A DNA stretch of 50,650 nucleotides from Egibacteraceae bacterium (GTDB lineage Bacteria > Actinomycetota > Nitriliruptoria > Euzebyales > Egibacteraceae): assembly GCA_040905805.1 (NCBI GenBank), contig JBBDQS010000048.1:78706-129355 (forward strand), in the 5' to 3' direction. Under the pieces are notes generated by a model. The model did no database searches and had not been told where the DNA came from. It was given only the letters and a program-made list of their open reading frames with translations. Every line of letters starts with the position of its first letter. Position 1 is the stretch's first letter. The position numbers were made by a program, and so were the translations under genes. Of the stretch, positions 27,166 to 50,517 are shown piece by piece.

Positions 27166-27924
27166 ATGCGCATTGCATTCGTCGGTAAGGGCGGCGCCGG
27201 CAAGTCGGCGATCGCCGGCACGTTCGCCCGCCTCCTCGCGCAGCGCGGGGAGCCCGTGCTGGTGCTGGACTCGGACCCGCTGCCGGGTCTTGCCTACTCG
27301 CTGGGCATGGACAGCACCGATGCGGGCATCCCTGACGAGGCGGTGATGGAGAACCCCGAGGAGGGTGGCCCCCGCTACATCCTGCGGGAGGGGCTGACCG
27401 CCGCGGACGCGGTCGAGCAGTACGCCGCCGAGGGTCCGGACGGGGTCCGGGTCCTGCAGTTCGGCAAGATCCACGACGCCGGCCGCGGGCTCATGCGCTC
27501 GCAGTTCGCCTACCGCCAGATCACCGGGCAGCTGCCCGACGACAAGTGGAGCATCGTCGGCGATCTCCCCGGCGGGACGCGCCAGCCGTTCCTCGGCTGG
27601 GGCCGTTACGCCACCACGGTGCTGGTGGTCGTCGAGCCGATGGCCAAGTCCTTGCTCTCGGCGCGGCGCCTCGCGCGCCTGCAGCTCATCGACGACCCAC
27701 CGCGCGTCGTCGCCCTGGCCAACAAGGTCCGCGACGAGGGGGATGTCGAAATGGTGGCGGAGCGCACCGGTTTGGAGGTCATCGGGGCGGTCCCCCTGGA
27801 CGACGCGATGGCGGAGGCCGACCGGCGAGGCCGGCCGGTCGTCGAGGACGCCCGGGACTCACCGGTGGTCAAGGCGATAGACTCGCTCGTGGAACGGCTT
27901 CGTGCCGAGGAGGAAACCGCATGA
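27166..27924 (+). CDS. CooC/MinD-type ATPase lacking the metal-binding cysteines
   Basis: 252-aa SIMIBI-class P-loop ATPase related to CooC, the nickel-insertion ATPase. The deviant Walker A is VGKGGAGKSAIAG with the signature lysine, followed by VLDSDPLPGLAYSLGMD. The region that holds CxC in CooC reads FGKIHDAGRGLMRSQ instead, with no cysteine, so it probably does not bind nickel there and may pair with the next gene product. ATG at 27166 is preferred over 27160: it gives the family start MRIAFVGKGG, and TACGGT at 27154-27159 then sits correctly for a leaderless mRNA. It overlaps the next gene by 4 nt (ATGA). Confidence 0.8.
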   Translation: MRIAFVGKGGAGKSAIAGTFARLLAQRGEPVLVLDSDPLPGLAYSLGMDSTDAGIPDEAVMENPEEGGPRYILREGLTAADAVEQYAAEGPDGVRVLQFGKIHDAGRGLMRSQFAYRQITGQLPDDKWSIVGDLPGGTRQPFLGWGRYATTVLVVVEPMAKSLLSARRLARLQLIDDPPRVVALANKVRDEGDVEMVAERTGLEVIGAVPLDDAMAEADRRGRPVVEDARDSPVVKAIDSLVERLRAEEETA

Positions 27925-30619: not shown

Positions 30620-31390
30620 TTAGCCGACCGGTGCGACGTCGGCGGGCTCCTCGGCGATGAAGTCGATCACGCGGTCGAGCGCGATCCGCACGGCGTCGGG
30701 CGGGTTCGTCGTGACCGCCGATCCGTCGCGGTCGGCGTCGGTCACGCCGGAGTCCATCGGGATGACCCCCGCCAACGGGACGCGGTACTCCGCGGCGATC
30801 TCGGCGAAGAACTCCGCGTCGTCGGGCAGGCGGGCCTTGTTGCCGACGCCGTAGACCCTGGGGATGCCGAGCTCCTCGGCCAGCGCGATCGTGCGGGCCG
30901 CCGTGATGACCGACTTGCGGCTGGGCTCCATGATCACGAGCAGCACGTCGGCGTAGGCGAGGGTGCCACCGGATCGGCTGAGGTGCTCCAGGCCGGCCTC
31001 CATGTCCACGAGGGTCACGTCGGCCTGCTCGGCGAGGACCTCGCCGAGGAAGTTGCGCACCGACGCGTGCCCCGAGCAGGTGCAGCCCGCGCCCGCCTCC
31101 ACCACCCGGATCGCCGAGAGCAGGATCGGACCCGCCGGTGTCTCGCGGCCGTACTTGTCGATGACCTCCTGGGAGGTCATGTCGCCGTCGGTGCCGACGA
31201 TGAGCCCGCGGGGCAGGACCGGCACCGCCTCCATGTCGTCCCAGCTGAGGCCGAGCGACATGCCGAGGTTCGGGTTCGAGTCCGTGTCGATCGCGATGAC
31301 GCGATCTCCGCGCGCGGCGTACGCCTGCGCGATGAGTGCGGAGGAGGTGGTCTTGCCCACGCCACCCTTGCCGACGATTCCGAGTTTCAT
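30620..31390 (-). CDS. CooC-type nickel-insertion ATPase
   Basis: 256-aa CooC-like SIMIBI ATPase, the type that delivers Ni to carbon monoxide dehydrogenase or similar enzymes after ATP-driven dimerisation. Walker A is VGKGGVGKTTSSA; DTDSNPNLGMSLGL follows. The metal-binding CxC is intact (AGAGC103-T-C105SGH), then VTLVDMEAGLEHLSRSG and VIMEPSRKSV. It is the full-cysteine counterpart of the TGA-containing ATPase at 27921. Start ATG at 31390 with GAGGAG upstream. It is divergent from the small membrane-protein cassette beginning at 31577. The target enzyme is not in the window. Confidence 0.88.
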   Translation of the reverse strand: MKLGIVGKGGVGKTTSSALIAQAYAARGDRVIAIDTDSNPNLGMSLGLSWDDMEAVPVLPRGLIVGTDGDMTSQEVIDKYGRETPAGPILLSAIRVVEAGAGCTCSGHASVRNFLGEVLAEQADVTLVDMEAGLEHLSRSGGTLAYADVLLVIMEPSRKSVITAARTIALAEELGIPRVYGVGNKARLPDDAEFFAEIAAEYRVPLAGVIPMDSGVTDADRDGSAVTTNPPDAVRIALDRVIDFIAEEPADVAPVG

Positions 31391-31576: not shown

Positions 31577-31825
31577 GTGGTCCTGTGGTGGATCGCCAAC
31601 GCGACCGCCCTGCTGGTCGTCATCCCCTTGGTGGTGCTCCTCGCCAACCGGGTCATCGCCCAGGCGCTTGAGGTCCGCCAGTACGCCGACGAGATCCTGG
31701 AGCACGGCGTCCGCCTCACCGGCACCCTGGATCCCCTGCCTGCCCTTGCCGACACGCGCACCGCGGTGGCGGAGGCCGGGGAACACGCCGGCCGGTACGT
31801 GACGGCGCTGCACCGCTTGATCTGA
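31577..31825 (+). CDS. Small single-pass membrane protein, LWW type
   Basis: 82-aa protein starting MVLWWIANATALLVVIPLVVLL: one N-terminal membrane helix, then a helical cytoplasmic or exterior tail with VRQYADEILEHGVRLTG. It belongs to no family I know but is clearly paralogous to the protein at 49745 (shared LWW start, VVIP in the helix, EIR-Y-D-LEHGV). GTG at 31577 is chosen over 31568 because it matches that paralogue. First gene of a cassette with another small membrane protein and DUF1059. Confidence 0.7.
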   Translation: MVLWWIANATALLVVIPLVVLLANRVIAQALEVRQYADEILEHGVRLTGTLDPLPALADTRTAVAEAGEHAGRYVTALHRLI

Positions 31826-31855: not shown

Positions 31856-32107
31856 ATGTCCGCAGCGGCGATCGTCACGCTGATCCTCGCGGGTCTGCTC
31901 GTGGGTGCGCTGGCCTTCTACCTGACGTGGGTCGTCATGATCGTCAACCACGTCAACGACACGCTCGGCAAGGTGACGTTCGGGGTCCGGTCCATCGCCC
32001 ATCGCACGGGTCCGGTCGGCCCGGCGCTCACCGACGTCAACGGCAACCTCACGGCGGTCGCAGAGGCCCTCGAGGGCGTCGCCGACGCCGTCACCGCCGA
32101 TACGTGA
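31856..32107 (+). CDS. Small single-pass membrane protein, NHVN type
   Basis: 83-aa protein: membrane helix at about 5-30 (VTLILAGLLVGALAFYLTWVV), then IVNHVNDTLGKVTFGVRSIAHR and an amphipathic helical tail. Paralogous to 50004 (VTLI, IYLT, LNHVN, GVRAIA) and more distantly to 49467. ATG with AGGAGACG upstream. Function unknown; the same partner genes recur at the other locus. Confidence 0.7.
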   Translation: MSAAAIVTLILAGLLVGALAFYLTWVVMIVNHVNDTLGKVTFGVRSIAHRTGPVGPALTDVNGNLTAVAEALEGVADAVTADT

Positions 32108-32147: not shown

Positions 32148-32330
32148 ATGAGCGTCGAGCTCGCCTGCGCCGATGTCGGCGTCGCCTGCAGGGCGGTGCA
32201 CCGGGCAGCCAGCAAGGATGAGCTGCTTGCCAAGGTGGCGGCCCATGCCCGCGATCGGCACGGGGTCGTCCTGACCCGGACGCTGATCGACTACGCCGCC
32301 GCAGAAGCCCGCACGACCGCGGGAGGGTGA
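32148..32330 (+). CDS. DUF1059 family small protein (all-cysteine form)
   Basis: 60-aa DUF1059 protein: LACADVGVACRAVHRAASKD, then ELLAKVAAHARDRHGV. Cys7 and Cys14 are the conserved pair that could bind metal or form a disulfide. DUF1059 has no established function. It is a complete paralogue of the TGA-containing gene at 50338, aligning residue for residue at the N-terminus, and follows the same two membrane-protein types. AAGGGAG ribosome site before the ATG. Confidence 0.85.
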   Translation: MSVELACADVGVACRAVHRAASKDELLAKVAAHARDRHGVVLTRTLIDYAAAEARTTAGG

Positions 32331-33238: not shown

Positions 33239-34051
33239 CTAGTCGGCCTCGAGCCGCTTCAGGCGGTCCACGCCGATGCTGCCGTGCCCGCTGGGCGTCT
33301 TGATCACCAACCCGCCCTGGTCATCGATGTCCGCGGCGGTCCCGACCGCGTCGCCGGCAGGCATGAGCAGCGCCCGAACCCGCGTGCCGAGGGTGCCGCA
33401 CCGGGCCTTGTAGCCCTCCAGCAGTGCCGGCACGCCGGCCTCGTACCACTCGTCCAGTCGACCGAGGATGGCCTCCAGCACCGCCAGGCGTGGCGGGGCG
33501 GCGCCCTGCATCTCCATCGCCAGGCTGGTCACCTGTGGGCGCAGGCCGTCGGGAAAGTCGTCGGGCTCCAAGCCGACGTTCAGGCGCACCGTCAGCACCG
33601 CCGTGTCGATCATCCCCGGACCGAGTTGGGCGTCGACCCGGACTCCACCCACCCCACGCCCACCGACCAACAGGTCGTTCGGCCACTTCAGCGCGACGTC
33701 CATGCCCGTCGCCGCCTCGACCCCCTCGGCGGCGGCCAGGGATGCCAGCAACCACAGCAGGCCCTCGCCGGCAGGGGGGAGCGCCGGACGCAGGACCAGG
33801 GCGAAGGCCAGCGACCGACCCGCCACCGAGACCCAGGTCACCCCGCGCCGGCCCCGCGCGGAGAGCTCGACGTCCATGACCACCAGGGCGCCCTCGGGCG
33901 CGTCCTGCTTCCGCGCCCACCCGAGGGCGAGCGATTCCGCGGAGACGCCGACCCCGAAGTACTGGACCGGGTGACCGAAGGTGCGGTCGGAGCCGAGCGC
34001 GGCCACGATGCGCTCGGCGGAGAGGTCGCCGCCTGCGGGCTCTTCCACCAC
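33239..34051 (-). CDS. Biotin-protein ligase-like protein (BirA catalytic type)
   Basis: 270-aa protein of the BirA/LplA fold without an N-terminal DNA-binding domain, so not a repressor. It retains SARGRRGVTWVS in the place of GRGRRG and LKWPNDLLVGG. However, the position of the catalytic lysine in DRKLAGI is GRGVGGV here, so the lysine is missing, and the first Gly of GRGRRG is Ala. It may be an inactive or altered ligase. GTG start overlaps the upstream stop as TAGTG. Confidence 0.7.
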   Translation of the reverse strand: MVEEPAGGDLSAERIVAALGSDRTFGHPVQYFGVGVSAESLALGWARKQDAPEGALVVMDVELSARGRRGVTWVSVAGRSLAFALVLRPALPPAGEGLLWLLASLAAAEGVEAATGMDVALKWPNDLLVGGRGVGGVRVDAQLGPGMIDTAVLTVRLNVGLEPDDFPDGLRPQVTSLAMEMQGAAPPRLAVLEAILGRLDEWYEAGVPALLEGYKARCGTLGTRVRALLMPAGDAVGTAADIDDQGGLVIKTPSGHGSIGVDRLKRLEAD

Positions 34052-34543: not shown

Positions 34544-35842
34544 TCATGGCCGTTCGTATCCGAGGGATTCCAGGGTGTCGCGCACCCGCATGCGCTGGGG
34601 GGCCAGCAGCTCGTTGGCGATGGCGTACTCCATGATCTCGCCCGCGGCCTCGCGCGCCTCGTCGGATGGCAGGAACCCGTGCGCGAACATGCGGGCCTGG
34701 AGCGCCGCGACCAGCAGGTCGTCGGGCAGCTCCATCAGGACGTCGAGCCAGGTCGCGGTGATCCGCAGCGCCTGCTCCCGTTCGAGGTTCAGCACCGCGA
34801 CCTCCAGCTCGGTGAGCCGCTCGTCGCGTTGCTTCTCCGGCAGCATGAGGAGGTCGAGCATGCGCCGGCGGAGCAGGCCGAGGCGCTCGGGCTCCTCGAT
34901 GTCGCCGAGCAGCGCCACGAAGTGCTCGGCCCTGGTGGACTGCTCGCCCCGATCCTCGAGTGCCGCCTCGACGAGCTCCAGGTTGCGAAAGGTCTGGTCC
35001 CGCTGGGGCTTGTGCATGCGGATGTCGAGCACCTGCAGCGCGTCGTGGTAGGACGCGAGCGCCCGGCGCATGGACGTGATGTCAGCCTGCTGGGCGTGGG
35101 CCAGGCCCAGGTTGTTCTTGGCCAGGGCGTACTGGAAGGGGTATCGCTGGCGCGTGAAGACCCCGAGCGACTCCTCGAACGCCGACGCAGCCTGCTGGCT
35201 GCGGCCGAGGGCGGTCAGCGAGACACCACGGGCGTGCTGCAGGAGTGCCCACTGGTAGGGCAGCTCCTCGTCGTCGGTCTCCCCGATCGCGTCCTCGTAC
35301 GTCTGCACCGCGGCCTCGTGGTCGCCACCGGCCGCTTGGGCCTGCCCCAGGTTGTGGCGCGCCATCGCGCCCTGGCGTGGTTCCCCGGCGGCGGCGAAGA
35401 TCTCCACGGCCTGCCGCAGGTTGCCCACCGCCTGCTCGTGCTGGCCGAGGTCGCTGCGGGCCAGACCGACGTTGTTGAGCGCCGCGGCGAGCTCGCCGGG
35501 GACGTGGCCTCCTGCGAGCAGGTCGACCGCCCGGGAGCAGGCGTCGATCGCCGCCTGCGGCTCACCGAGCTCGCGCAACGCCGCCCCCAGCGCGTTCTGC
35601 ACGCGGGCGTGCTCGACGGGGAAGCGGTGCGGGCCGAAGAGGCTCGCCGCCTGCCGGTAGGACGCCACGGCTCGGGAGAGGTTCATCCGCCGGTCGCCCG
35701 AGGGCAGCTCGGCGTAGGCCAGACCGATCGAGTGCCGTAGCGAGGCATGCTCGAGCGGACGGGCGGCGCGCGGCGTGGCCTTCAGTCGGGCTTCGAGCTC
35801 TGCGAGCTGCTGCTCAGGCGTCGTCGGGGCCGTCATCTCCAT
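34544..35842 (-). CDS. Tetratricopeptide repeat protein
   Basis: 432-aa soluble TPR protein. At least five repeats run from about 40 to 260 (ALGAALRELGEPQAAIDACSRAV, AALNNVGLARSDLGQHEQAV, ARHNLGQAQAAGGDHEAAV, LAKNNLGLAHAQ). A helical C-terminal region rich in Leu, Glu and Arg has no recognised domain. It should be a protein-protein interaction scaffold; no enzymatic part is seen. On the minus strand TACTCT (35854-35849) lies 6 nt before the ATG at 35842, suggesting a leaderless mRNA; ATG 35836 is an alternative. Confidence 0.8.
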   Translation of the reverse strand: MEMTAPTTPEQQLAELEARLKATPRAARPLEHASLRHSIGLAYAELPSGDRRMNLSRAVASYRQAASLFGPHRFPVEHARVQNALGAALRELGEPQAAIDACSRAVDLLAGGHVPGELAAALNNVGLARSDLGQHEQAVGNLRQAVEIFAAAGEPRQGAMARHNLGQAQAAGGDHEAAVQTYEDAIGETDDEELPYQWALLQHARGVSLTALGRSQQAASAFEESLGVFTRQRYPFQYALAKNNLGLAHAQQADITSMRRALASYHDALQVLDIRMHKPQRDQTFRNLELVEAALEDRGEQSTRAEHFVALLGDIEEPERLGLLRRRMLDLLMLPEKQRDERLTELEVAVLNLEREQALRITATWLDVLMELPDDLLVAALQARMFAHGFLPSDEAREAAGEIMEYAIANELLAPQRMRVRDTLESLGYERP

Positions 35843-38584: not shown

Positions 38585-39469
38585 ATGGTTGCTACCGGGC
38601 TCCACATCCCGTCGGTCGAGGAAGCAGCCAACATGCTGCGGCGGGGCGGGTATCTCGCCGACGCCGCGACCGCCACGACCGTCTACCTCGCCGCTCGCCT
38701 GCGCAAGCCGTTGCTCCTCGAGGGTCCGGCCGGCACCGGCAAGACCGAGCTGGCGCTGGCGCTGGCGCAGGCCACCGGTGCCCGGCTGATACGCCTGCAG
38801 TGCTACGAGGGTCTCGACGAGACCAAGGTGCTGTACGAGTGGAACTACCGCAAGCAGCTCCTCGGCCTGCAGGCCGCGACGGCCAACGGCGAGGACGGCG
38901 GGAGCCCGTTGGACGACGTCTTCAGCGAGCCGTTCCTGTTGTCGCGTCCGGTGCTCGATGCGATCCGTTCGTCGGAGCCGGTCGTGCTCCTGATCGACGA
39001 GGTCGACCGCATCGAGATGGAGACGGAGGCGCTGCTGCTGGAGGTGCTGTCGGACTTCCAGGTCACCATCCCCGAGCTTGGGCTGATCACCGCCCACAGC
39101 CAGCCCCTGACCATCCTGACGTCGAACGCGACCCGGGAGCTGTCCGAGGCGCTCAAGCGCCGGTGCCTGTACCAGTGGATGGACTACCCCACCCCCGACC
39201 GCGAGCGTGCCATCGTGCTGTCGCGGGTGCCCGGCATCACCGAGACGCTCGCGCAGCAGGTGGTGCGCACGGTGCAGGCCATCCGCGGCCTGGAGCTGAA
39301 GAAGGCCCCGTCCATCGCCGAGACGCTCGACTGGGCGGCGACGCTCGTCGACCTCGGGCTCACCCCGGCGGACCGCGATGCGCTGGAGCGCACCGGCGGC
39401 ACGCTGCTGAAGCACCGCAGCGACCAGGCGACGGTGCTGCGCGAGCTCGACGAGGGCTCCGGTGGCTGA
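38585..39469 (+). CDS. MoxR/CoxD-type AAA+ ATPase
   Basis: 294-aa AAA_5 ATPase of the MoxR/NorQ/CbbQ/CoxD group. Walker A is LLLEGPAGTGKTELALAL, Walker B VVLLIDEVDRI, sensor 1 TSNATRELS. These ATPases work with a VWA-domain partner to insert metals or remodel cofactor enzymes; CoxD does this for Mo-Cu CO dehydrogenase. The partner follows with an 8-nt overlap. SD GAGGAGG before the ATG. Confidence 0.9.
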   Translation: MVATGLHIPSVEEAANMLRRGGYLADAATATTVYLAARLRKPLLLEGPAGTGKTELALALAQATGARLIRLQCYEGLDETKVLYEWNYRKQLLGLQAATANGEDGGSPLDDVFSEPFLLSRPVLDAIRSSEPVVLLIDEVDRIEMETEALLLEVLSDFQVTIPELGLITAHSQPLTILTSNATRELSEALKRRCLYQWMDYPTPDRERAIVLSRVPGITETLAQQVVRTVQAIRGLELKKAPSIAETLDWAATLVDLGLTPADRDALERTGGTLLKHRSDQATVLRELDEGSGG

Positions 39470-40829
39470 GACCCGGACAGCCGGGCTGGGCGAGCACGTC
39501 GTCGCCTTCGCCCGCGAACTGCGGGCCGCGGGGATCGCGGTGTCGGCCCCCGAGATCAGCGATGCCCTGGTGGCCCTGCCCGCCGTGCCGCTGGAGCACC
39601 GGGAGGTGGTCCGCGCCGCGCTCGCCGCCGTGCTCTGCAAGGAGCCGGCGCTGCGGCCGCGCTTCGATCGCATCTTCGACCTCTACTTCCCGATGCGGTC
39701 ACCGCGGCAGGGCCGTGCCGAGAGCAGGAGACGCGGTGGGGGAGACCCCAGCCAGGAGCTCACGGAGGCCCTGCGATCCGGCGACCGGGAGCGGCTGCGC
39801 GAGATGGCCCAGGAGCGGGTCGAGGAGCACGGTGACGAGTCCGACGCGAACCTCAGCGAGGACGCCGCGGTGTTCCGGGCGCTGCGGGGGCTGAACCTCG
39901 ACGCCATCATGCAGCAGCTCTACGACGACGAGGTCTCGGGCCAGGGGCTCACGGCCCTGGAGCGCCGTGCGATCACGGAGGACATCGGCGACCGCATGGA
40001 GGCCTTCCGTGACATGCTCACCGACGAGATCTTCTCGGACATGCTGGGGGTCCTGAGCCCGGAGGAGCTGGCGGGCCGCAACCGCCGTCCCCCACCGGAT
40101 GAGATCGACTTCCTCTGGGCCAGCCAGTCCGACGTCGAGCGCATGCGCACCGCCCTGGCCCCCTTGGCCCGCAAGCTGACCCAGAGCCTGTCCCACCGTC
40201 GCCGCCGCGCCCGCCGGGGCCGGCTCGACATGCGACGGACGATCCGCTCGTCGCTGTCGACGGGCGGCGTGCTCGTCGAGCCGCGGTTCCGCCGTCCGAT
40301 CGCCGGCAAGCCGGAGATCGTGCTGCTGTGCGACATCTCCGGGTCCATGCGGGCGTTCGCGAAGTTCACGCTTGAGCTGACCTACGGGCTCGCCACGCAG
40401 TTCCAGCGGGTGCGCACGTTCGTCTTCGTCGATGCCGTGGACGAGGTCACGTCCATGCTCCAGACGGCGGGCTCCTTCCCGGCCGCGCTCGCCCGGGTCG
40501 AAGCCGAGGCCGAGGTGGTCACCACGGACGGCCAGTCCTGGTACGGCAACTGCATGGAGCAGTTCTGGCAGCGCGTCGGCCGGGAGATCGCTCCGCGCAC
40601 GACGGTCCTGGTCGTGGGCGACGCCCGCGGGAACTTCCGCAGCACCGGCGTGGAGTACCTGCAGCGCGTCGCCGACCGCGCCCGCAGCCTGTACTGGCTC
40701 AACCCCGAGCCGCGCGCCCACTGGGACACGGGAGACTCGGTCATGAGCCAGTTCGCGCCGGCATGCGACGAGGTGGTGGAGGTCCGCACGCTCGCCCAGC
40801 TCGAGGCCTTCGTCGCGAGGGCGCTGTGA
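39462..40829 (+). CDS. CoxE-like VWA domain protein
   Basis: 455-aa partner of the MoxR-type ATPase. A helical N-terminal region and a basic middle (RRRARRGRLDMRRTIRSSL) precede a C-terminal von Willebrand factor A domain. Its MIDAS motif is LLCDISGSMRAFAKF, with metal-coordinating DARGNF further on. The pairing matches CoxD-CoxE, NorQ-NorD and CbbQ-CbbO. Here it lies in a nickel/hydrogenase accessory cluster. Start overlaps the ATPase gene by 8 nt. Confidence 0.88.
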   Translation: MAETRTAGLGEHVVAFARELRAAGIAVSAPEISDALVALPAVPLEHREVVRAALAAVLCKEPALRPRFDRIFDLYFPMRSPRQGRAESRRRGGGDPSQELTEALRSGDRERLREMAQERVEEHGDESDANLSEDAAVFRALRGLNLDAIMQQLYDDEVSGQGLTALERRAITEDIGDRMEAFRDMLTDEIFSDMLGVLSPEELAGRNRRPPPDEIDFLWASQSDVERMRTALAPLARKLTQSLSHRRRRARRGRLDMRRTIRSSLSTGGVLVEPRFRRPIAGKPEIVLLCDISGSMRAFAKFTLELTYGLATQFQRVRTFVFVDAVDEVTSMLQTAGSFPAALARVEAEAEVVTTDGQSWYGNCMEQFWQRVGREIAPRTTVLVVGDARGNFRSTGVEYLQRVADRARSLYWLNPEPRAHWDTGDSVMSQFAPACDEVVEVRTLAQLEAFVARAL

Positions 40830-41279: not shown

Positions 41280-42485
41280 TCAGCAGATGCGGGGGAGGGG
41301 GTCGCCGACCAGGACGTCGACGATGCGGGTCCCGCCGAAGGTGGTCTTCAGCAGCACCAGGCCGGGGGGATCGTCGCTGATCGAACCGATCACCGCAGCG
41401 CCCTTGCCGAGGGGGTGGGCGTGCAGGGCCTCCAGGGCGGCGTCCGCCTCGGCGCCGTCGATGACGAGGACCATGCGACCCTCGCAGGCGACGTAGAGCG
41501 CGTCGATGCCGAGGATCTCCGTGGCGCCGAAGACGTCGGGGCGCATCGGGACCTTGCCTTCGTCGAGCACCGCGGCTATCTGCGAGGCCTGCGCGATCTC
41601 GTTCAGGACCGTCGCCACGCCCCCGCGCGTGGCGTCGCGCATGCAGCGCACGCCGGTGGTGGCGTCGAGCAGCCGGTCGATCAGCTCGTGCAGGGGGGCG
41701 GTGTCGGAGACGACGTCGGACTCGATCTCCAGCTCCCCGCGGGCGAGCATGACCGTCACGCCGTGCTCGCCGATGGGTCCGGACACGATGATCGTGTCGC
41801 CCGGCTGGGCGCTCGCGGCCGACAGGTTCAGGTCCCGCTCGAGCAAGCCGATGCCGGAGGTGTTGATGTAGCAGCCGTCGCCCTTGCCGCGGGGGACGAC
41901 CTTGGTGTCCCCGGTGACGATCTGCACACCCGCCGCGGCCGCGGCGGTCGCCATGGTCTCCACGATCCGCCGCAGGTCCGCGATCGGGAAGCCCTCCTCC
42001 AGGATGAACCCGGCGGACAGGCTGAGCGGGCGGGCGCCGGAGACCGCGAGGTCGTTGACCGTTCCGTTGACCGCCAGGTCGCCGATGTTGCCGCCCGGGA
42101 AGAACAGCGGCGAGACCACGAAGGAGTCCGTGGTGAACGCCAGCCGGGTGCCGCCCACGTCCAGCATCGCCTGGTCTTCCATGCGCTCCAGGGTCGGGTT
42201 GCGGAAGCTCTCCAGGAACAGCGCGTCGATCAGGGTCTGGGTGGCTTTGCCGCCCGCCCCGTGCGACATGGTGATGCGCTCCTCCTTGATCCGCGCCTTG
42301 CGGGCCCGTGCGCGCTCGATCTTCTGGTGCACCTGCTCCTCGCGGGAGAGGTGCGCCTCACCGGGGGCGTGCGGCGCGAGCTCGTGGAACTCCTCGTGCT
42401 CGCGCAGGGCCTCCTCGGCCCAGTCCGCGGAACGCGCCCCGTCGTCGTCGGGGGGGACGCCGGGAGCGGCGGCTTGGTCGGTCAT
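41280..42485 (-). CDS. hypE: Hydrogenase maturation protein HypE
   Basis: 401-aa ATP-dependent enzyme that dehydrates a C-terminal thiocarboxamide to thiocyanate for the Fe-CN ligands. The C-terminus is PLPRIC, with the modified Cys last. The PurM-like core includes HGAGGKATQTLI, VNGTVNDLAVSGA, VTGDTKVVPRGKGDG and TRGGVATVLNEIA. It is about 60-70 aa longer than usual: an acidic and then Arg/Lys-rich helical extension (HLSREEQVHQKIERARARKA) precedes the core. Start overlaps the hypD stop as ATGA. Confidence 0.93.
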   Translation of the reverse strand: MTDQAAAPGVPPDDDGARSADWAEEALREHEEFHELAPHAPGEAHLSREEQVHQKIERARARKARIKEERITMSHGAGGKATQTLIDALFLESFRNPTLERMEDQAMLDVGGTRLAFTTDSFVVSPLFFPGGNIGDLAVNGTVNDLAVSGARPLSLSAGFILEEGFPIADLRRIVETMATAAAAAGVQIVTGDTKVVPRGKGDGCYINTSGIGLLERDLNLSAASAQPGDTIIVSGPIGEHGVTVMLARGELEIESDVVSDTAPLHELIDRLLDATTGVRCMRDATRGGVATVLNEIAQASQIAAVLDEGKVPMRPDVFGATEILGIDALYVACEGRMVLVIDGAEADAALEALHAHPLGKGAAVIGSISDDPPGLVLLKTTFGGTRIVDVLVGDPLPRIC

Positions 42486-43606
42486 GTCCCGGTCGCCTCC
42501 CGGACGCGCTCGCGGGTGAACCGTCCGAAGTTGTAGTAGGCCGCGCAGGCGCCCTCGCTGGACACCATGCAGGTGCCGATCGGGGTCTCGGGGGTGCAGG
42601 CCGTGCCGAACACCTTGCACTCCCACGGCTTGAGCACGCCCTTCAGGACCTCGCCGCACTGGCAGGCCTTGGGGTCGGCCACGCGCACGCCCGGGACGTC
42701 GAAGACGCGTTCGGCGTCGAAGGCGGCGTACTCCTCGCGGACCTGCATCGCCGACTGGGAGATGAAGCCCAGGCCGCGCCACTCGAAGTAGGGCCGCAGC
42801 TCCATCGTCTGGCCGATGACCTTCAGCGCCGCGCGGTTGCCGTCCCACGGGACGACGCGGCTGTATTGGTTCTCGACCTCTGAGCGCCCTTCCTGCAGCT
42901 GCTTGAGGATCATGTAGACGCCCTGGAGGATGTCCAGCGGCTCGAAGCCCGAGGTCACGATGGGCTTGCCGTAGTCCCGGGCGATGAACTCGTAGGGCCG
43001 GCAGCCGATCACCGTGGAGACGTGCCCCGGCCCGATGAAGCCGTCCAGGCGCAGGTCCGGCGAGTCCAGGATCGCTTTGATCGCCGGGATGATCGTGACG
43101 TGGTTGCAGAAGATCGAGAAGTTCTCGAGGCCCTCGGCGGCCGCACGCAGCACCGTCGCCGCGGTGGACGGGGCGGTCGTCTCGAAGCCGATCGCCATGA
43201 ACACGACCCGCTTGTCGGGGTTGTTGCGGGCGATCTTCAGCGCGTCCAGCGGCGAGTAGACCATGCGGATGTCCGCGCCGGCGGCGTTGGAGTCGAAGAA
43301 CGATCCCCGGCCCCCGGGCACGCGCATCATGTCGCCGAAGGACGTCATGATGACGTCGTCGGACTCGGCGATCGCGATCGCGTCGTCGACGCGTCCCATG
43401 GGGATGACGCACACCGGACAGCCGGGTCCGTGGATCAGGGACACGTTCTCCGGGAGGTAGTCCTCGAGGCCGTGGCGGTAGATCGTGTGGGTGTGCCCCC
43501 CGCACACCTCCATGAACTTGTACTCGCGGGAGCCCGCAAGCTCGGCGATCTCCTTGGACAGCCGCTTCGCGATGTCCGCGTCGCGGTACTCGTCGACGAA
43601 CTTCAT
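42482..43606 (-). CDS. hypD: Hydrogenase maturation protein HypD
   Basis: 374-aa iron-sulfur scaffold on which, with HypC, the Fe(CN)2CO unit is assembled. Motifs: EVCGGHTHTIYRHG (with the essential Cys), HGPGCPVCVIP, GFETTAPSTA, and the C-terminal [4Fe-4S] cysteines spread over ACQCGEVLKG, WECKVFGTAC and the SSEGAC region. Length is standard. Overlaps at both ends (ATGA) with hypE and the SIS gene. Confidence 0.95.
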   Translation of the reverse strand: MKFVDEYRDADIAKRLSKEIAELAGSREYKFMEVCGGHTHTIYRHGLEDYLPENVSLIHGPGCPVCVIPMGRVDDAIAIAESDDVIMTSFGDMMRVPGGRGSFFDSNAAGADIRMVYSPLDALKIARNNPDKRVVFMAIGFETTAPSTAATVLRAAAEGLENFSIFCNHVTIIPAIKAILDSPDLRLDGFIGPGHVSTVIGCRPYEFIARDYGKPIVTSGFEPLDILQGVYMILKQLQEGRSEVENQYSRVVPWDGNRAALKVIGQTMELRPYFEWRGLGFISQSAMQVREEYAAFDAERVFDVPGVRVADPKACQCGEVLKGVLKPWECKVFGTACTPETPIGTCMVSSEGACAAYYNFGRFTRERVREATGT

Positions 43607-44277
43607 GGTGTCGCTCCTAGGCCTTCGAGGGCGGTCTGGGTCAGTTCCCACAGGACGTGGTACAGGGTCGTCTGGGCCTCCTGGATGCGGTGCACCGAGG
43701 TGGAGGGCACCACGAAGAGGAAATCGATGTTGTCGGCCTCGGCCATCTGTCCGCCGTCGTAGCCCGCCAGGCCCACGGAGATGAGCCCGCGACGCGAGGC
43801 CTCGTCGAAGGCGCGGAGCACGTTGGTCGACCCGCCCGACGTCGACAGCCCGACGGCGATGTCGCCGGGGCGCCCGAACGCCGCGATCTGGCGGGCGTAC
43901 ACGACGTCGAAGCTCACGTCGTTGGACAGCGCGGTGAGGACCGCGATGTCACCGGTGAGCGACAGCGCCGGCAGGGGGCGGTCGGGGGGACCGGGGTGCA
44001 GGAACGTGTTGACCACGTCTTGGGCATCGGTGCTCGACCCGCCGTTGCCGAAGGCGAAGAGCTTGCGGCCCGCGACGAAGGAGGCGGCCATCGCCTCGGC
44101 GCAGTCGACCAGCCGATCGGCGTGCAGCTCGAAGACCTCCTCGCGCAGCGCGACGATCTCCGCCGCCTTCTCGGCGGTGGACCGGCGCGCCTCCGTCAGC
44201 ACGGCGTCGACGTTCGATGCGTCGGCGTACAGGAACGGGTAGAGCGACTCGAAACCGCCCGGGGTGTCGTTGGCCAT
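43603..44277 (-). CDS. SIS domain protein (GmhA-like), copy 1
   Basis: 224-aa sugar-isomerase (SIS) domain protein of the phosphoheptose isomerase type. Motifs FAFGNGGSSTDAQDVVN and VGLSTSGGSTNVLRAFDEA match GmhA. GmhA makes lipopolysaccharide heptose, which an actinobacterium does not need, and the gene is embedded between hypD and a hypC-like gene. A hydrogenase-linked role, for instance binding a phosphorylated small molecule, is more likely. Such genes recur in actinobacterial hydrogenase operons. Confidence 0.85.
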   Translation of the reverse strand: MANDTPGGFESLYPFLYADASNVDAVLTEARRSTAEKAAEIVALREEVFELHADRLVDCAEAMAASFVAGRKLFAFGNGGSSTDAQDVVNTFLHPGPPDRPLPALSLTGDIAVLTALSNDVSFDVVYARQIAAFGRPGDIAVGLSTSGGSTNVLRAFDEASRRGLISVGLAGYDGGQMAEADNIDFLFVVPSTSVHRIQEAQTTLYHVLWELTQTALEGLGATP

Positions 44278-45158: not shown

Positions 45159-45437
45159 CTACTCGATGTCGCTGGTGGCGAGGTCGGACAGCTCCTCCTC
45201 GTACATCGAGCCGAGCTGCTCGAGGAACCGGAACGTCTCCTCCGCCTCCTTCTCGTCGATCTTGGACATGGCGAAGCCGACGTGGATCAAGACCCAGTCA
45301 CCGACCTCGATGCCGCCCTCGTCCGCCGGGATGAGCTGGATGGAGACGTTGCGGCGCACGCCGTTGACGTCTGCCTTGGCGATCCCGTTCTCCGGATCGA
45401 CCAGCTCCACGATCTTGCCGGGAATACCGAGACACAT
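45159..45437 (-). CDS. hypC: Hydrogenase assembly chaperone HypC
   Basis: 92-aa HypC/HupF chaperone. It begins MCLGIPGKIVELVD with the required Cys2, continues GIAKADVNGVRRNVSIQLIP and VGDWVLIHVGFAMSKIDE, and has a C-terminal helix EAEETFRFLEQL. It escorts the iron centre from HypD to the hydrogenase large subunit. It is the first gene of the minus-strand hyp operon, with GGAGGAG upstream of the ATG and a 16-bp palindrome about 100 bp before it. Confidence 0.95.
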   Translation of the reverse strand: MCLGIPGKIVELVDPENGIAKADVNGVRRNVSIQLIPADEGGIEVGDWVLIHVGFAMSKIDEKEAEETFRFLEQLGSMYEEELSDLATSDIE

Positions 45438-46052: not shown

Positions 46053-46730
46053 GTGATCGGCACGACCCGACAGGGGCCAGGCAAAGCACCACGACACGCC
46101 CGAGAGCACGGGCAGGTCGAAATCGCCAGCGTACTCGTTCTCGTGGTGGTCCTCGCCGCTGTGGCGGTGTCCGCCGGCCTGCTGGGTCGGACCTTGACGA
46201 CCGCGCGCAGCATCAACGAGAAGGCCGACACGATCGCCGAGAGCGGGACCGGCATCAACGCCGCGACAGACTCCATCGTCCAGCTGAACCGCACGAACGA
46301 GACCGCGGCGTCGATCCTGAACACCGCTGACCCCCTGGAGGGGCTGCTCGCGGAGATCGTGGCGCTCGCCCAGGCCGTCGACGGGCTCGCGACCTCGATC
46401 AACTCGACCGCCGGTGGGATCCTCGGAGCCGCCCAGACCATCAACACCACCGCCGCGTCCGGTGGCATCGGCGGCACCGCAGCCACCATCGACACGACGG
46501 CCGTGGGCATCAACCAGACGGCCGCCGCGATCCTCGACGTCGCCCGGCGCATCGACGGTGACGTGGTGCGCATCAACACCAGCCTCGACACGACGATCCC
46601 GCTGGCACAAGGCATCAAGCAGGACACCGGCGGCATCCTGACCACCGCGCAGTCGATCAACTTCACGGCGTGCGGCATCGACAACAAGCTCTTGCTCGGG
46701 CCGCTGGCCGGCACCGGCGTCTGTCAATAG
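46053..46730 (+). CDS. Single-pass membrane protein with long helical exterior, protein 1
   Basis: 225 aa: one membrane helix (about 22-46, VEIASVLVLVVVLAAVAVSAG), then about 170 residues of degenerate repeats built on I-x-x-TA-x-x-I (SINSTAGGILGAAQTINTTAA). These predict a long helix or coiled-coil stalk outside the cell. Two cysteines near the end (TACGID and GTGVCQ). No recognised family; it resembles methyl-accepting or stalk proteins only in general character. GTG start with AGGAGGTGG. First gene of a run of related proteins. Confidence 0.7.
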   Translation: MIGTTRQGPGKAPRHAREHGQVEIASVLVLVVVLAAVAVSAGLLGRTLTTARSINEKADTIAESGTGINAATDSIVQLNRTNETAASILNTADPLEGLLAEIVALAQAVDGLATSINSTAGGILGAAQTINTTAASGGIGGTAATIDTTAVGINQTAAAILDVARRIDGDVVRINTSLDTTIPLAQGIKQDTGGILTTAQSINFTACGIDNKLLLGPLAGTGVCQ

Positions 46731-46742
46731 GAGGCATGACCA

Positions 46743-47453
46743 ATGGCAACCAAGCTCCAAAGCAGATACGCCGAGACCGAGCGCACGTCGCAGGTGACCC
46801 CCGGCTCGGCGGGCGACGTCGAATCAGCCGGTGTCAGCCGCTGGCTGTGGATCTGGGTGACGATCGCCCTGCTGGTCCTCGTCGTGGTGATCGCGTTCCT
46901 CATCGGCATCTCCAACGCGCTGGTCTCGATCGACAACGCGCTGGCCTCGACCGACTCCGACCTGGTCGATGTCACGGGCGACGTCCGCCCGCTGCCTGAC
47001 CAGGTCGCGCTCGTCAACGAGACCCTCGGCAGCATCGACACCGCGCTCCTCCCGGTCCCGGGCCAGGCGCAGACCATCGTCAGCGAGCTGAGCACGATCC
47101 GCGGCTCGCTGCAGCAGGTCGACTCGTCACTGTCCTCCACGTTGGCGTCGCTGAACAACACGTCCAGCTCCTTGCAGGGGACCGGCGGTGGCCTGGTCGG
47201 CACCTCCGACACCCTGCAGTCGGTGCTGGCGCGGGCCAATGAGATCCTGGCCTCGCTGGAGAACACCCAGTCCACCGGCATGCCGGCGGGCCAGGGCTTC
47301 TCCGCGGACAACATCTGGATGCGAGTCGACATCGCCAACAGCATTCTCGGCCCCGTCAGAAGCGATACGAACAACGTCCTTCCGGCGCTCCAGCAGACCG
47401 ACGGCCACCTCGAGAGCATCTGCACCGGCCTCCCCACTCCGGGCCCGTGCTAG
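46743..47453 (+). CDS. Single-pass membrane protein with long helical exterior, protein 2
   Basis: 236 aa, same plan as protein 1: short cytoplasmic part, membrane helix at about 33-57 (WLWIWVTIALLVLVVVIAFLIG), then a Ser/Leu-rich helical exterior (STIRGSLQQVDSSLSSTLAS). It ends ESICTGLPTPGPC, so again a Cys pair near the C-terminus with the last residue a Cys. Ribosome site GGAGG; 12 bp after protein 1. Function unknown; shared design suggests a hetero-oligomer of proteins 1-3. Confidence 0.7.
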   Translation: MATKLQSRYAETERTSQVTPGSAGDVESAGVSRWLWIWVTIALLVLVVVIAFLIGISNALVSIDNALASTDSDLVDVTGDVRPLPDQVALVNETLGSIDTALLPVPGQAQTIVSELSTIRGSLQQVDSSLSSTLASLNNTSSSLQGTGGGLVGTSDTLQSVLARANEILASLENTQSTGMPAGQGFSADNIWMRVDIANSILGPVRSDTNNVLPALQQTDGHLESICTGLPTPGPC

Positions 47454-47464
47454 GAGGCCTGACC

Positions 47465-48169
47465 ATGACCAACCGACTCCGGGAACGAATCCATAGCGGC
47501 GAGGAAGGCCTCGCCGGGGCGTCCCTCGTCATCGTCATCGCCTGGGCGCTGGCGGCCGTGCTGATGCTCACGGGCACGCTCGTGGCGGCACAGCAGATCG
47601 ACGAGCGGGTCTTCGAGATCCGCAATCTCGTCACCGACATCGAGGACGACACCCGGCACGTCGCCCTCACCGAGGAGATCAACGCGAGTGCCGCCGGCAT
47701 CCTCGACGCGGCAGCGCCCCTGTCCGCTCAGCTCGACGAGGTGATCGGCTCCGCCGGCAGCATCGACGGCACCGTCACCCAGATCCTCGGCACCGCCGGG
47801 GAGATCAACTCGGTCGCGGCCGGCCAGATCAATCCCAACGTTCTCGCCATCGGCGGGTCCGAGGCCGGCATCCGCGGCTCCGTGCAGCAGATCGGCACCA
47901 CGTTCAACACGTTGTTGCCGGTCGTGCAGGACATCAACGTGGGCGTCGCGGACATCAACCGCCGCGTCGACGTGGTCATCGCTGAGGTCCAGGGCATCAA
48001 GGCCGACACCGGCGGCATCGTCGCGAACGTCGGCCTCAGCCCGCAGGAGAACACCATCTACGGGCACGCCAACTCGATCGACTGCAACGCGGTCGTCCGC
48101 CTGCTGAGCCTTGATCCCGCCGGCTTGTTGGCCGGGCTGCTGGGCGGCGGCGGCGGCGGCTCCTGCTAG
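47465..48169 (+). CDS. Single-pass membrane protein with long helical exterior, protein 3
   Basis: 234 aa with a membrane helix at about 17-41 (LAGASLVIVIAWALAAVLML). The helical exterior has ASAAGILDAAAPL and GSIDGTVTQILGTAGEIN, followed by DTGGIVANVGLSPQEN, IDCNAVV, and a tail LLGGGGGGSC ending in Cys. The ATG at 47465 has AGGAGG upstream. KADTGGI here and KQDTGGIL in protein 1 show common origin. Confidence 0.7.
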   Translation: MTNRLRERIHSGEEGLAGASLVIVIAWALAAVLMLTGTLVAAQQIDERVFEIRNLVTDIEDDTRHVALTEEINASAAGILDAAAPLSAQLDEVIGSAGSIDGTVTQILGTAGEINSVAAGQINPNVLAIGGSEAGIRGSVQQIGTTFNTLLPVVQDINVGVADINRRVDVVIAEVQGIKADTGGIVANVGLSPQENTIYGHANSIDCNAVVRLLSLDPAGLLAGLLGGGGGGSC

Positions 48170-48212
48170 GCGCACCACCGTGACCGAGACCCGCTCGCTC
48201 CCACCATCCTTG

Positions 48213-48851
48213 CTAGATCGAGGCGTCGAAGCTCTCGATCACCGTTCGGAAGGTGGGGGCGAGCGGGTCGAGGTCCGCACTCGGCAAGGCCTGCAGGACG
48301 ATGGTGATCATCGTGTCACCGTCGAACAGGAAGTAGTGCAGGTGCACCCCCTCCGCGCTCGAGGCGGCATCGGTGAAGGTGTACAGGTAGTAGATGCCAG
48401 GCAGACCGCCGACGACGACGACGGACGGCTCCGCCAGCATCTCCACCTGCTCACCGTCCATGACGATGGGGTCGGTGAAGGTCCGGACGCCCGCCAGGTC
48501 GTCCTCGCTGACCTCCGCGTCGAGCGTCACGACCCGTACGAGGATGGAGTGAGCGCCGTTGAGCGTGGCGAGCAGGCGGACGGATGGATCGTCCGTGGCA
48601 ACCTGCTCCCAGCCCGACGGGTACGAGACGACGAAGCCCCACTCCTCGTCGTGAAACTCGGTGAAGTCCCCCACGTCAGCGGGAGCAGGCACCGGTTGGA
48701 CGGGTTCCTGGGCAATGGTCGGAGCCGCGTCCGGTTGCGCCGGCGCAGCAAGGCCAGGGACCTCGAAAAAGCGTTCCCCGGCCGTCGCCCCGACCACTAT
48801 GATCAGGCCGGCCGTGAAGGCCGCGCCGAAGAGCATGAGATTGCGCCGCAT
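48213..48851 (-). CDS. Membrane-anchored PsbP/DUF1795-like protein
   Basis: 212-aa protein. N-terminal anchor (LMLFGAAFTAGLIIVVGATAG, about 5-25), a Pro/Ala linker, then an extracytoplasmic domain opening DFTEFHDEEWGFVVSYPSGW, the pattern of PsbP/DUF1795 (LpqN-like) proteins. No function assigned. It runs opposite to the surrounding membrane-protein genes and splits them; the upstream region shared with the next gene is only 47 bp. Confidence 0.65.
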   Translation of the reverse strand: MRRNLMLFGAAFTAGLIIVVGATAGERFFEVPGLAAPAQPDAAPTIAQEPVQPVPAPADVGDFTEFHDEEWGFVVSYPSGWEQVATDDPSVRLLATLNGAHSILVRVVTLDAEVSEDDLAGVRTFTDPIVMDGEQVEMLAEPSVVVVGGLPGIYYLYTFTDAASSAEGVHLHYFLFDGDTMITIVLQALPSADLDPLAPTFRTVIESFDASI

Positions 48852-48898
48852 GCGCCGATCGTAGTCGGAGATCAGAGCGCGCACAGAAGGAGGACCGG

Positions 48899-49189
48899 AT
48901 GTTGAGCCAGTTGCTGGTGATCGCAGATCACGGCGAAGCACATCTGTGGGGATGGTGGCTGGGCCTCGGGCTCGGTTTCGCCCTCGTATGGGTGGTGGTC
49001 ATCCTCGTCTCGGCGATCCTGTCGCGGGCGTCGCGGATCGCCAAGCAGGCCCAGGACATCCTGATCGGCCTCGACCGCGGACGGGTCCAGACCCTGCCGC
49101 TGTGGGACATCGACGCCGTGAACACCTCGGCGAAGGCCATCCTGGATCGTGCGACCGAAGCCCGGGAAGCGTTGGAGGCACAAGCATGA
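48899..49189 (+). CDS. Small single-pass membrane protein (HLWGWW type)
   Basis: 96 aa: a short N-terminus with His residues (LLVIADHGEAHLWGWW), membrane helix at about 18-42, and a helical tail (AKQAQDILIGLDRGRV, then NTSAKAILDRATEAREALE). Unrecognised. Ribosome site AAGGAGG. Stop overlaps the next ATG (ATGA), beginning a tightly coupled five-gene set. Confidence 0.65.
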   Translation: MLSQLLVIADHGEAHLWGWWLGLGLGFALVWVVVILVSAILSRASRIAKQAQDILIGLDRGRVQTLPLWDIDAVNTSAKAILDRATEAREALEAQA

Positions 49190-49470
49190 CCGCAAGCATG
49201 ACGGTACTCGCGTACGCCCAAGAAGAGATCGCGATGTGGTCGGTCGCGCTCGGCATCGGCGCGGTCGTGATCGCGGTCGTGATCGCGCTGCTCACGCTGC
49301 TCCTGCGCTTCGTGCAGGACATCGACCAAGGTCTCGCCGACGTCTGGCAGATGGCCACCAAGCTGGCGGCCAACACCGCCACCGCCTGGCAGCTGCAAGG
49401 GACCGCCAACACCGTGGACAAGCTGCGCGACGAGATTCGCCGCCACGACGAGCTCTGGAGTGCCCAATGA
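49186..49470 (+). CDS. Small single-pass membrane protein
   Basis: 94 aa with one membrane helix (SVALGIGAVVIAVVIALLTLLL, about 19-40) and a helical tail DIDQGLADVWQMATKLAANT then VDKLRDEIRRHDELW. No family recognised. ATGA overlaps at both ends with its neighbours imply equal production with them. Confidence 0.65.
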   Translation: MTASMTVLAYAQEEIAMWSVALGIGAVVIAVVIALLTLLLRFVQDIDQGLADVWQMATKLAANTATAWQLQGTANTVDKLRDEIRRHDELWSAQ

Positions 49471-49733
49471 TCCGACTGCTGATCGTTCTGACCGTCGCGG
49501 AGATCCTGCTCCTGGTGCTCGTGCTGGCCATCTACCTGGTGGTCATCACCACCCGGTTGCGGTCGGTGTCGGCCACCCTGGCCAACGTCGCCTTCGGTGT
49601 GCGCGCCGTCGAGGAGCAGGTGCAATCGATCGCGCCGCCCGTCGTACGCGTCAACAAGGCGCTCGGCGAGATCGCCAAGATGCTTCCGCGCATCGCCGGC
49701 AACGTGCAGCGCTACGCGCGCGCCGTCCAGTAG
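49467..49733 (+). CDS. Small single-pass membrane protein, distant NHVN type
   Basis: 88 aa. Membrane helix at about 3-27 (LLIVLTVAEILLLVLVLAIYL), then RLRSVSATLANVAFGVRAVEEQ. The IYL end of the helix and FGVRA-like stretch align with the proteins at 31856 and 50004, so it is a diverged third copy. ATGA overlap with the previous gene. Confidence 0.65.
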   Translation: MIRLLIVLTVAEILLLVLVLAIYLVVITTRLRSVSATLANVAFGVRAVEEQVQSIAPPVVRVNKALGEIAKMLPRIAGNVQRYARAVQ

Positions 49734-49744
49734 AAGGAGACGAC

Positions 49745-49990
49745 ATGGCTTTGTGGTGGCTTGGCAATCTGATCTTCGTCGCGGTCGTCATCCCGGTGGT
49801 GGTGACCCTGCTGAACAACCTGATGGAGCCCATCGTCGAGATTCGACGGTACGGTGACGACGTCCTCGAGCACGGTGTGCTGCTGATCGCAGCGCTCGAC
49901 GCCGTCGACGAGCTCGAGAACACCCGCGACCTGCTCGCCGAGGTTTCCTCCGGCGTCAAGAGCTACGGCGCTGCCCTCAAGCAGCTGTAG
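49745..49990 (+). CDS. Small single-pass membrane protein, LWW type
   Basis: 81 aa, MALWWLGNLIFVAVVIPVVVTLL, then EIRRYGDDVLEHGVLLIAAL and a helical tail. Paralogue of the protein at 31577, with the same first position in the cassette LWW-NHVN-DUF1059. AAGGAGA ribosome site. Confidence 0.7.
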   Translation: MALWWLGNLIFVAVVIPVVVTLLNNLMEPIVEIRRYGDDVLEHGVLLIAALDAVDELENTRDLLAEVSSGVKSYGAALKQL

Positions 49991-50003
49991 AGAAGGAGTA
50001 GAC

Positions 50004-50246
50004 ATGCCTTTGGCTGCTGTCGTCACCCTGATCGGCGTCGCGCTGACCGTTGCGGTCCTCGCGATCTACCTCACCCGGGTGGCGCTCATCCTGAACCACG
50101 TGAACTTCACGGTCGGCACGATCAACGCCGGCGTCCGTGCGATCGCCCAGGGCGCTGAGCCCCTGGAGCCGCTCATCGGCGAGATCTACTCGCACCTGGA
50201 GGAGACCCGCTACGCACTCGAGGACGCGCTCGGCGTGGAGGGCTGA
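50004..50246 (+). CDS. Small single-pass membrane protein, NHVN type
   Basis: 80 aa, membrane helix at about 5-30 (VVTLIGVALTVAVLAIYLT), then LILNHVNFTVGTINAGVRAIA and an acidic tail. Paralogue of 31856. AGAAGGAG before the ATG. The DUF1059-type gene follows after 91 bp. Confidence 0.7.
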   Translation: MPLAAVVTLIGVALTVAVLAIYLTRVALILNHVNFTVGTINAGVRAIAQGAEPLEPLIGEIYSHLEETRYALEDALGVEG

Positions 50247-50337
50247 GCGGCGGTCCGTTGCAATCCGGGCCCCCACCTGGCTGCGAATAGCAGGTGGAGG
50301 CGCCCAACGTCCGAGACCTCAACCGAGGAGGGCTTCC

Positions 50338-50517
50338 ATGGCATACGAGTTCCGCTGAACGGATGCAGGTGCAACCTGCAAGGGCCACTTCAAGGCGTCG
50401 AGCGAAGACGAGCTTCTCAGCAAGGTCGGTGACCACCTTCGCACCAAGCACAAGGTGCAGAACGTGAGCAAGACCCTGCAGAGGTTCGCCGTCAGAAGCG
50501 CCAAGGGCGGCAACTAG
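50338..50517 (+). CDS. DUF1059 protein with an in-frame TGA (probable selenocysteine)
   Basis: A 60-codon gene if the TGA at 50356-50358 is decoded: MAYEFR-U-TDAGATC, then KASSEDELLSKVGDHLRTKH. Aligned with the intact paralogue at 32148, residue 7 (TGA) falls on Cys7 and Cys14 is kept. The ribosome site GAGGAGGG is intact, no other stop interrupts the frame, and the part after the TGA keeps the DUF1059 pattern, all against simple decay. A perfect hairpin follows the TGA, but closer to it than in standard SECIS elements. Alternatives are a TGC-to-TGA mutation or sequencing error. Confidence 0.7.
50364..50390 (+). promoter_or_regulatory. Hairpin downstream of the TGA, possible SECIS
   Basis: TGCAGGT-GCA-ACCTGCA (50364-50380) is a perfect 7-bp stem starting only 5 nt after the TGA. 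An alternative fold (GGTG/CACT and CCT/AGG, loop GCA at 50378-50380) puts the loop G at the 20th base after the TGA, as in fdhF. The two exclude each other. Confidence 0.4.

Follow-up and report, generated by a model that had tools for sequence, protein, structure and literature searches.

What are eight short membrane proteins, each with a single strongly hydrophobic helix, doing beside a [NiFe]-hydrogenase gene cluster of an Egibacteraceae bacterium? The genes, here named P1-P3 and S1-S5, lie together with a DUF1059 gene at the downstream end of the window, i.e. the whole stretch of 50,650 nucleotides that was analysed (GCA_040905805.1, contig JBBDQS010000048.1; G000:C48:78706-129355 of a 144,619-base contig; coordinates prefixed L003 run past the edge of the window). 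We propose that S1-S5 and P1-P3 probably constitute a hetero-oligomeric helical membrane platform that docks soluble trace-gas dehydrogenases. The members of the set and the gene interposed between them are as follows:

46053..46730, plus strand: P1, single-span membrane protein with a long heptad helical tail, no Pfam family above cut-off
46743..47453, plus strand: P2, built as P1, weak likeness to DUF948 (20.0 bits vs cut-off 37.2)
47465..48169, plus strand: P3, paralogue of P1
48213..48851, minus strand: M, N-terminal hydrophobic helix and weak PsbP-like domain, conserved beside the set
48899..49189, plus strand: S1, HylTM1-like
49186..49470, plus strand: S2, HylTM2-like
49467..49733, plus strand: S3, HylTM3-like
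49745..49990, plus strand: S4, HylTM4-like
50004..50246, plus strand: S5, HylTM5-like
50338..50517, plus strand: DUF1059 protein (47.2 bits vs cut-off 21.1), in-frame UGA at codon 7, probable selenocysteine

Nine open reading frames (P1-P3, S1-S5 and DUF1059) were judged real. The first-pass annotation, made from the letters alone, had seen here an undescribed, tight operon-like run of eight membrane proteins, each with one N-terminal helix and a helical tail, followed by DUF1059. Reading frames and hydrophobicity profiles bear out the build of the eight proteins, and the Pfam score together with the in-frame TGA bears out the gene that follows them. The tight run stands in part: the gene order recurs in other genomes, which is more than chance, but ATGA overlaps occur at the S1/S2 and S2/S3 junctions only, the remaining gaps being of 11-13 bases, with 91 bases ahead of DUF1059. 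Furthermore, the set is not one run, because the minus-strand gene M sits between P3 and S1, and the idea of one continuous operon was rejected on this ground. The best Pfam match of M was PsbP at 21.7 bits, just below the cut-off of 23.5; a search of the PDB returned no solved relative of M, and its homologues were found near the same set in further genomes.

Small membrane proteins at hydrogenase loci

Group 1l hydrogenase clusters are described, in the available part of PMC9561532, as having the genes of HylTM1-5, short transmembrane proteins five in number, placed between those of the small and large hydrogenase subunits. To judge from sequence, S1-S5 are HylTM-like and thus of a known kind. 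The epithet "undescribed" is accordingly lost for S1-S5, which match the HylTM1-5 of that source, and kept for P1-P3, of which we found no description in the open-licence literature searched.

GTDB contigs were scanned with nine large subunits, which gave 371 relatives, and 80 group 1l-type loci were kept and inspected with S1-S5 profiles built from Actinomycetota loci. Six Rubrobacteraceae loci (L080, L085, L088, L089, L091 and L092) showed, in full or truncated where the contig ends, the arrangement small subunit-S1-S2-S3-S4-S5-large subunit, and the exact S1-S5 order between the subunits was present in 36 of the 80. In fifteen loci one or other subunit went undetected on the contig; among the 65 that hold both, S-like genes were located between the subunits in numbers of at least four in 45 and of two or three in 5, upstream of the small subunit (two to four genes) in 13, and were absent from 2. 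The loci were distributed over Actinomycetota, Chloroflexota, Acidobacteriota, Gemmatimonadota, Bacteroidota, Pseudomonadota, SAR324, Armatimonadota and Deinococcota, so that the hydrogenase neighbourhood of the small proteins, which the first-pass annotation had suggested searching for, exists in several phyla. P1-P3 had no match among those listed for the 80 loci.

The set in the window shares with HylTM1-5, as far as the available part of that description goes, five short single-span proteins in the same order, sequence homology and the link to a group 1h-related hydrogenase. It differs in lying outside the small/large subunit pair, whose genes are adjacent here (L003:11595-14739), in being partly duplicated, in being accompanied by P1-P3, M and a DUF1059 with UGA, and in having homologues at carbon monoxide dehydrogenase (CODH) loci as well.

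Extension of the contig past position 50650, another check that had been proposed, revealed the hydrogenase itself 6-10 kb beyond the edge: a small subunit (L003:11595-12797) next to an intact large subunit (L003:12856-14739), which carries DPCMPCTTH and a tail, with genes for a maturation protease and an NfuA-like protein nearby. Among solved structures the large subunit comes closest to 5AA5 (HofG), at 497 bits, versus 115 bits to HucL of Huc; 5AA5 is taken to be the group 1h enzyme, of actinobacterial type, from Ralstonia eutropha. The enzyme beside the set is read as a group 1h/1m-type hydrogenase. Its large subunit branches outside the clade with interposed transmembrane proteins, on a long branch in a midpoint-rooted tree, which agrees with a 1m-type enzyme.

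The same set at CO dehydrogenase loci

An S4 profile made of two sequences was run on 396 Actinomycetota genomes and returned 42 places in 36 genomes. Within 20 kb, a hydrogenase large subunit was present at 16 of them, form I CoxL (over the TIGR02416 cut-off of 991 bits) at 12 and neither at 14. For this count the hydrogenase list comprised strong matches in S4-bearing genomes and two large-subunit paralogues, and wide flanks were taken for 40 of the 42 places (left out: G141:C541 and G253:C48). At CODH loci the set is compact, with the order S4-S5-S1-S2-S3 in seven of them, CoxG (PF06240, 58 bits vs 22.2) directly upstream of S4, CoxL about 1.6 kb away (TIGR02416, 1114 bits vs 991) and CoxM, CoxS, MoxR and VWA genes in the vicinity. 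A longer order, S4-S5-S1-S2-S3-P1-P2-P3, is present in G092, where it adjoins CoxL, and in G189, where it adjoins CoxG.

Among the 11 CODH-linked genomes, eight had no [NiFe]-hydrogenase match at E<=1e-10, two had matches of E ~1e-12 only, and one encoded a group 1h enzyme. The first-pass annotation had offered a hydrogenase platform, to be given up if the set were found widely in genomes without such an enzyme. This was found in part: genomes with the set but no strong [NiFe]-hydrogenase match do exist, but the set there adjoins CO dehydrogenase. The linked hydrogenase genes stand, but a hydrogenase-only platform is too narrow and was rejected, because the same set adjoins CO dehydrogenase in genomes lacking a strong [NiFe]-hydrogenase match.

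A P2 profile was run over 275 genomes. It gave seven places above 100 bits in six genomes, all of them beside hydrogenase, CoxL or CoxG; weaker matches, at 31-38 bits, included S5-like genes of Rubrobacteraceae operons. Six of the strong places were known before, and the seventh, in G100, was new, having been missed by the S4 search, and served as a held-out check. This locus reads P1-P2-P3-S1-S2-S3-S4-S5-M on one strand, with the eight genes in the same order as in the window, 6-7 kb from CoxL (1187.8 bits), and the contig also carries a canonical 1h-type large subunit. As a control, 20 of the 45 other over-cut-off CoxL places, chosen for absence of S4, were inspected; an S or P match of at least 25 bits occurred in 0/20 and an M match in 2/20. 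The 11 CODH-linked rows form two groups in the S2 and S3 trees, with two label changes versus a shuffled mean of ~10.6, albeit over few alignment columns; this fits at least two recruitments.

CoxG is a quinone-binding membrane protein that acts between CODH and the quinone pool, according to the available part of PMC13240472. It belongs to a different family (PF06240), accompanying the S set without resembling it. At S-bearing CODH loci the C-terminal hydrophobic helix of CoxG is absent in 11/11 complete proteins (a twelfth is cut by the locus end), versus presence in 3/7 usable controls (of the eight present, one was a repeat that reached the end of its locus and was discarded). This difference, from a small sample, is suggestive only, and would fit an anchor handed over to the S set.

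Predicted structure

P1, P2 and P3 (225, 236 and 234 amino acids) have one hydrophobic helix each and a tail of ~180-200 residues, whereas S1-S5 (96, 94, 88, 81 and 80 amino acids) have one helix each and a tail of ~55-66 residues. None of the eight reaches a Pfam cut-off, the nearest family being DUF948 (PF06103), with 20.0 bits for P2 and 16 for S3 vs 37.2. P1 has two cysteines near its C terminus, one of them invariant across six aligned sequences; in P2 a PLP motif and two C-terminal cysteines are invariant in seven homologues. The tails, taken as the residues after the best 19-residue window and so possibly including the end of the membrane helix, have a heptad-like period of 3.4-3.55 residues, with shuffle p<=0.005 in six of eight proteins (P1, P2 and S3 <0.001; S5 0.001; S4 0.004; S2 0.005; P3 0.033; S1 0.12). 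The PDB sequences matched by the S3 and P2 profiles include viral and designed coiled coils and chemoreceptors, and these matches were read as composition and not as kinship.

In S1-S5 the mean net charge rises from the stretch ahead of the helix to the one that follows it (in S1, from -0.42 to +1.58), for which reason the S tails are placed, by the positive-inside rule, in the cytoplasm. Group 1h-type hydrogenase and CODH are taken to work in the cytoplasm, and no Tat motif was seen by eye in the hydrogenase small subunit.

A proposed docking platform and its alternatives

Homology to the group 1l proteins with conserved order, linkage to both enzymes, and single helices with heptad tails are directly supported. 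In the platform that we consider likely, each subunit would be anchored by its one N-terminal helix, and the heptad tails would bundle into a scaffold of cytoplasmic coiled coils. The scaffold would hold the dehydrogenase at the membrane, here the group 1h/1m-type [NiFe]-hydrogenase and elsewhere MoCu-CO dehydrogenase with CoxG. Electrons from H2 or CO would then pass to respiratory quinone reaching the enzyme at the dock.

The nearest published likeness is HucM of Huc, a group 2a hydrogenase: in the available part of PMC10017518, HucM is described as a tetramer, a coiled-coil tube that is proposed to let menaquinone pass. The likeness is in the role proposed here: a scaffold of coiled coils that links the membrane to a soluble hydrogenase for atmospheric H2, with a quinone route. 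As far as that part of the source tells, HucM differs in being one protein in a tetramer and membrane-peripheral, whereas here eight proteins have predicted spans and the large subunit is 1h-like. HucM was absent among the 60 best PDB matches listed for the S3 and P2 profiles and the 10 of S2, which involved no direct comparison.

Several observations weigh against the platform, or against its generality. We infer the assembly, the docking and the quinone route, the last by analogy with HucM. The charge signals of P1-P3 are mixed and leave the orientation of their tails unsettled; AlphaFold models of P1 and P2 consist of helices only, at low confidence (predicted local distance difference test scores of 53 and 58), and a PDB fold search with the P1 model gave no match at E<=0.001 among 295. 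S4 is near only 11 of the 57 CoxL places over the cut-off (12 with G100), mostly of a sub-group scoring 1050-1121 bits. In the genomes of 50 of the 80 group 1l-type loci, S2 was present in 48 and form I CoxL in 16, never together; in one case they share a contig, 866 kb apart. Given this lack of S2-CoxL pairing, the association with CODH is limited, for the present, to part of the Actinomycetota. Finally, there are the 14 of 42 S4 places without either enzyme within 20 kb. Two of these (G000:110285 and G226:28392) lie 21.5 and 22.8 kb from a large-subunit paralogue of the same cluster, three (G211, G258 and G017) are on short contigs with hydrogenase-cluster genes, and G189 adjoins CoxG; G386, G381:C58, G124 (two, including C188), G253, G103, G141 and G279:C9 are unexplained.

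The alternative that survives best, although we regard it as rather unlikely, is that the set only tethers the enzyme, while electrons exit through CoxG in the case of CODH, or through an iron-sulfur or cytochrome partner in that of hydrogenase. The retention of CoxG beside S4 speaks for such a passive anchor, as does the CoxG tail at S-bearing loci, which lacks its hydrophobic helix as if anchoring had been handed over. However, five to eight different helices exceed the needs of an anchor, and five conserved paralogues suggest a defined bundle.

We give distinctly less credence to an assembly or maturation platform standing outside the working enzyme, which would gather MoxR/VWA, CooC, NfuA and protease at the membrane during cofactor insertion. 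At hydrogenase loci the set does repeatedly have MoxR/VWA, CooC-like and NfuA-like genes as neighbours, and CODH loci have MoxR and VWA genes of the same families. On the other hand, the five genes stand between the structural subunits in group 1l-type operons, as would be expected of stoichiometric subunits. Moreover, the cofactors of hydrogenase and CODH come from different pathways, and a shared maturation platform is for that reason less natural than a shared electron outlet.

An unrelated scaffold (DUF948 or chemoreceptor-like coiled coils) neighbouring these enzymes by chance, for which the weak profile likeness to DUF948 and to generic coiled coils and the 14 unlinked S4 places could be cited, is very improbable and already largely refuted by the conserved position inside hydrogenase operons across phyla, together with the two CODH-linked tree groups and the held-out case of G100.

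Within the docking platform, S1-S5 most likely form the core, to which P1-P3 would add a further tier or a stalk. A more specific version can be offered only tentatively, at somewhat less than even chances: an enzyme-neutral quinone-docking bundle, which two unrelated metalloenzymes, [NiFe]-hydrogenase and MoCu-CO dehydrogenase, would have recruited at least twice (to judge from the S2 and S3 trees) for menaquinone reduction with electrons from atmospheric trace gases, with P1-P3 as extension stalk and a selenoprotein DUF1059 as a redox accessory.

DUF1059 and selenocysteine

DUF1059 is listed, in the available part of PMC9561532, as a domain of unknown function in the group 1m cluster. We found no description of it as a selenoprotein in the open-licence literature searched, and the word DUF1059 is absent from the deep-Sep paper.

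The UGA at codon 7 likely encodes selenocysteine. Scanning of the loci gave 11 distinct UGA-bearing DUF1059 genes in 10 genomes, all 11 with the UGA at the first conserved cysteine column (FRU vs FRC), and a search of the phylum yielded further such genes. Over the 50 codons after the UGA, comparison with the sister genome showed 10 synonymous and 4 non-synonymous differences. SelA (429.2 bits, cut-off 267.9) and SelB (329.6 bits, cut-off 242.25) are encoded on one contig of this genome. It should be added that SelA was dropped as a discriminator, being over the cut-off in 29 of 33 genomes with or without UGA.

The assignment falls short of proof because the selenocysteine tRNA (tRNA-Sec) was not found and a consistent selenocysteine insertion sequence (SECIS) hairpin was lacking. 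The search for tRNA-Sec found none with 150 of 830 candidates scored in a genome that is 95% complete, and the sole match over the gathering score was called tRNA-Ser by ARAGORN. A hairpin follows the UGA in the window and in the sister genome, with no consistent SECIS hairpin elsewhere. These two gaps count in favour of a true stop codon in a decayed gene; the constant cysteine column (11/11), the 10 versus 4 codon differences and SelA and SelB over their cut-offs make such decay quite improbable. As a separate observation, a direct repeat of roughly 60-90 bases, not recognised as tRNA, is located just downstream of selB at L094:3361-3530.

Other genes of the hydrogenase cluster

The remaining features of the cluster within the window, second copies included, are:

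24810..27221, minus strand: HypF
30623..31387, minus strand: CooC/MinD-type ATPase of the hydrogenase cluster
31577..31825, plus strand: second S4, 42% identical to S4
31856..32107, plus strand: second S5, 44% identical to S5
32148..32330, plus strand: second DUF1059, 40% identical, Cys at the UGA position
33242..34051, minus strand: BirA-like ligase, group 1m cluster gene
34547..35842, minus strand: tetratricopeptide-repeat (TPR) protein, group 1m cluster gene
38585..40829, plus strand: MoxR ATPase and VWA pair, same sequence families (fam 36, 37) as the CoxD/CoxE-type pair at CODH loci
41283..43651, minus strand: HypE and HypD
45162..45437, minus strand: HypC

In its sequence families, the MoxR/VWA pair is a second element common to the two gas enzymes. 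The published gene list of the group 1m cluster of Actinobacteriota (PMC9561532, in its available part) comprises adjacent subunits, a protease, an iron-sulfur protein, a CooC-type ATPase, TPR and BirA-like proteins, DUF1059 and two small transmembrane proteins of 82-92 amino acids. The genes at 30.6-36 kb and those downstream agree with this list, all of its gene types being found here; the likeness is one of gene content. The list, as available, shows neither the full S1-S5 and P1-P3 set nor a UGA.

A second S1-S2-S3 (L003:7093-7920, 34-39% identical) is located directly downstream of a degenerate large-subunit paralogue (L003:8035-9747, minus strand), in which three of the four cysteines that serve as Ni ligands are gone (CGWSGS, DPGMTEATH); a same-genus counterpart (L054:3750-5567) retains all four (CGWCGS, DPCMHCGTH). 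The degenerate copy, which has an S1-S2-S3 set of its own alongside, appears to have become a pseudo-enzyme recently. A first scan for its relatives had found none.

Two more large subunits are encoded in the genome; identity to the large subunit close to the window is 85% for one (G000:C51:38936-40819) and 44% for the other (G000:C19:49720-51438). An apparent NiFeSe signal, arising from in-frame TGA in some hydrogenase matches, was dropped: in the one match inspected, at L067:3342-5114, the open frame ends in DPCMSCATH, and the TGA has the look of a natural stop. Beside the second DUF1059, 32347-33222 gives a weak ABM-type match (21.9 bits vs cut-off 23.1), with relatives in other clusters (fam 30). 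Two GmhA/SIS-type isomerase genes lie between hypD and hypC (43606-45148), and their family occurs at other hydrogenase loci (fam 41).

Significance

Within the open-licence literature searched, which included a search on CODH, hydrogenase and small transmembrane proteins, and within the available parts of the sources cited, S1-S5 are known (as HylTM), while no description was found of P1-P3 or their travelling with S1-S5, of the CODH use or of the UGA-bearing DUF1059. For the sink that bacteria form for H2 and CO of the atmosphere, a central question still open is how soluble high-affinity hydrogenases and CODH hand over electrons to membrane quinone. A module common to both enzymes suggests that the electron outlet evolves apart from the catalyst, and it makes the hand-over open to direct experiment. 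If DUF1059 does contain selenocysteine, the selenoproteome would gain a family whose function is unknown.

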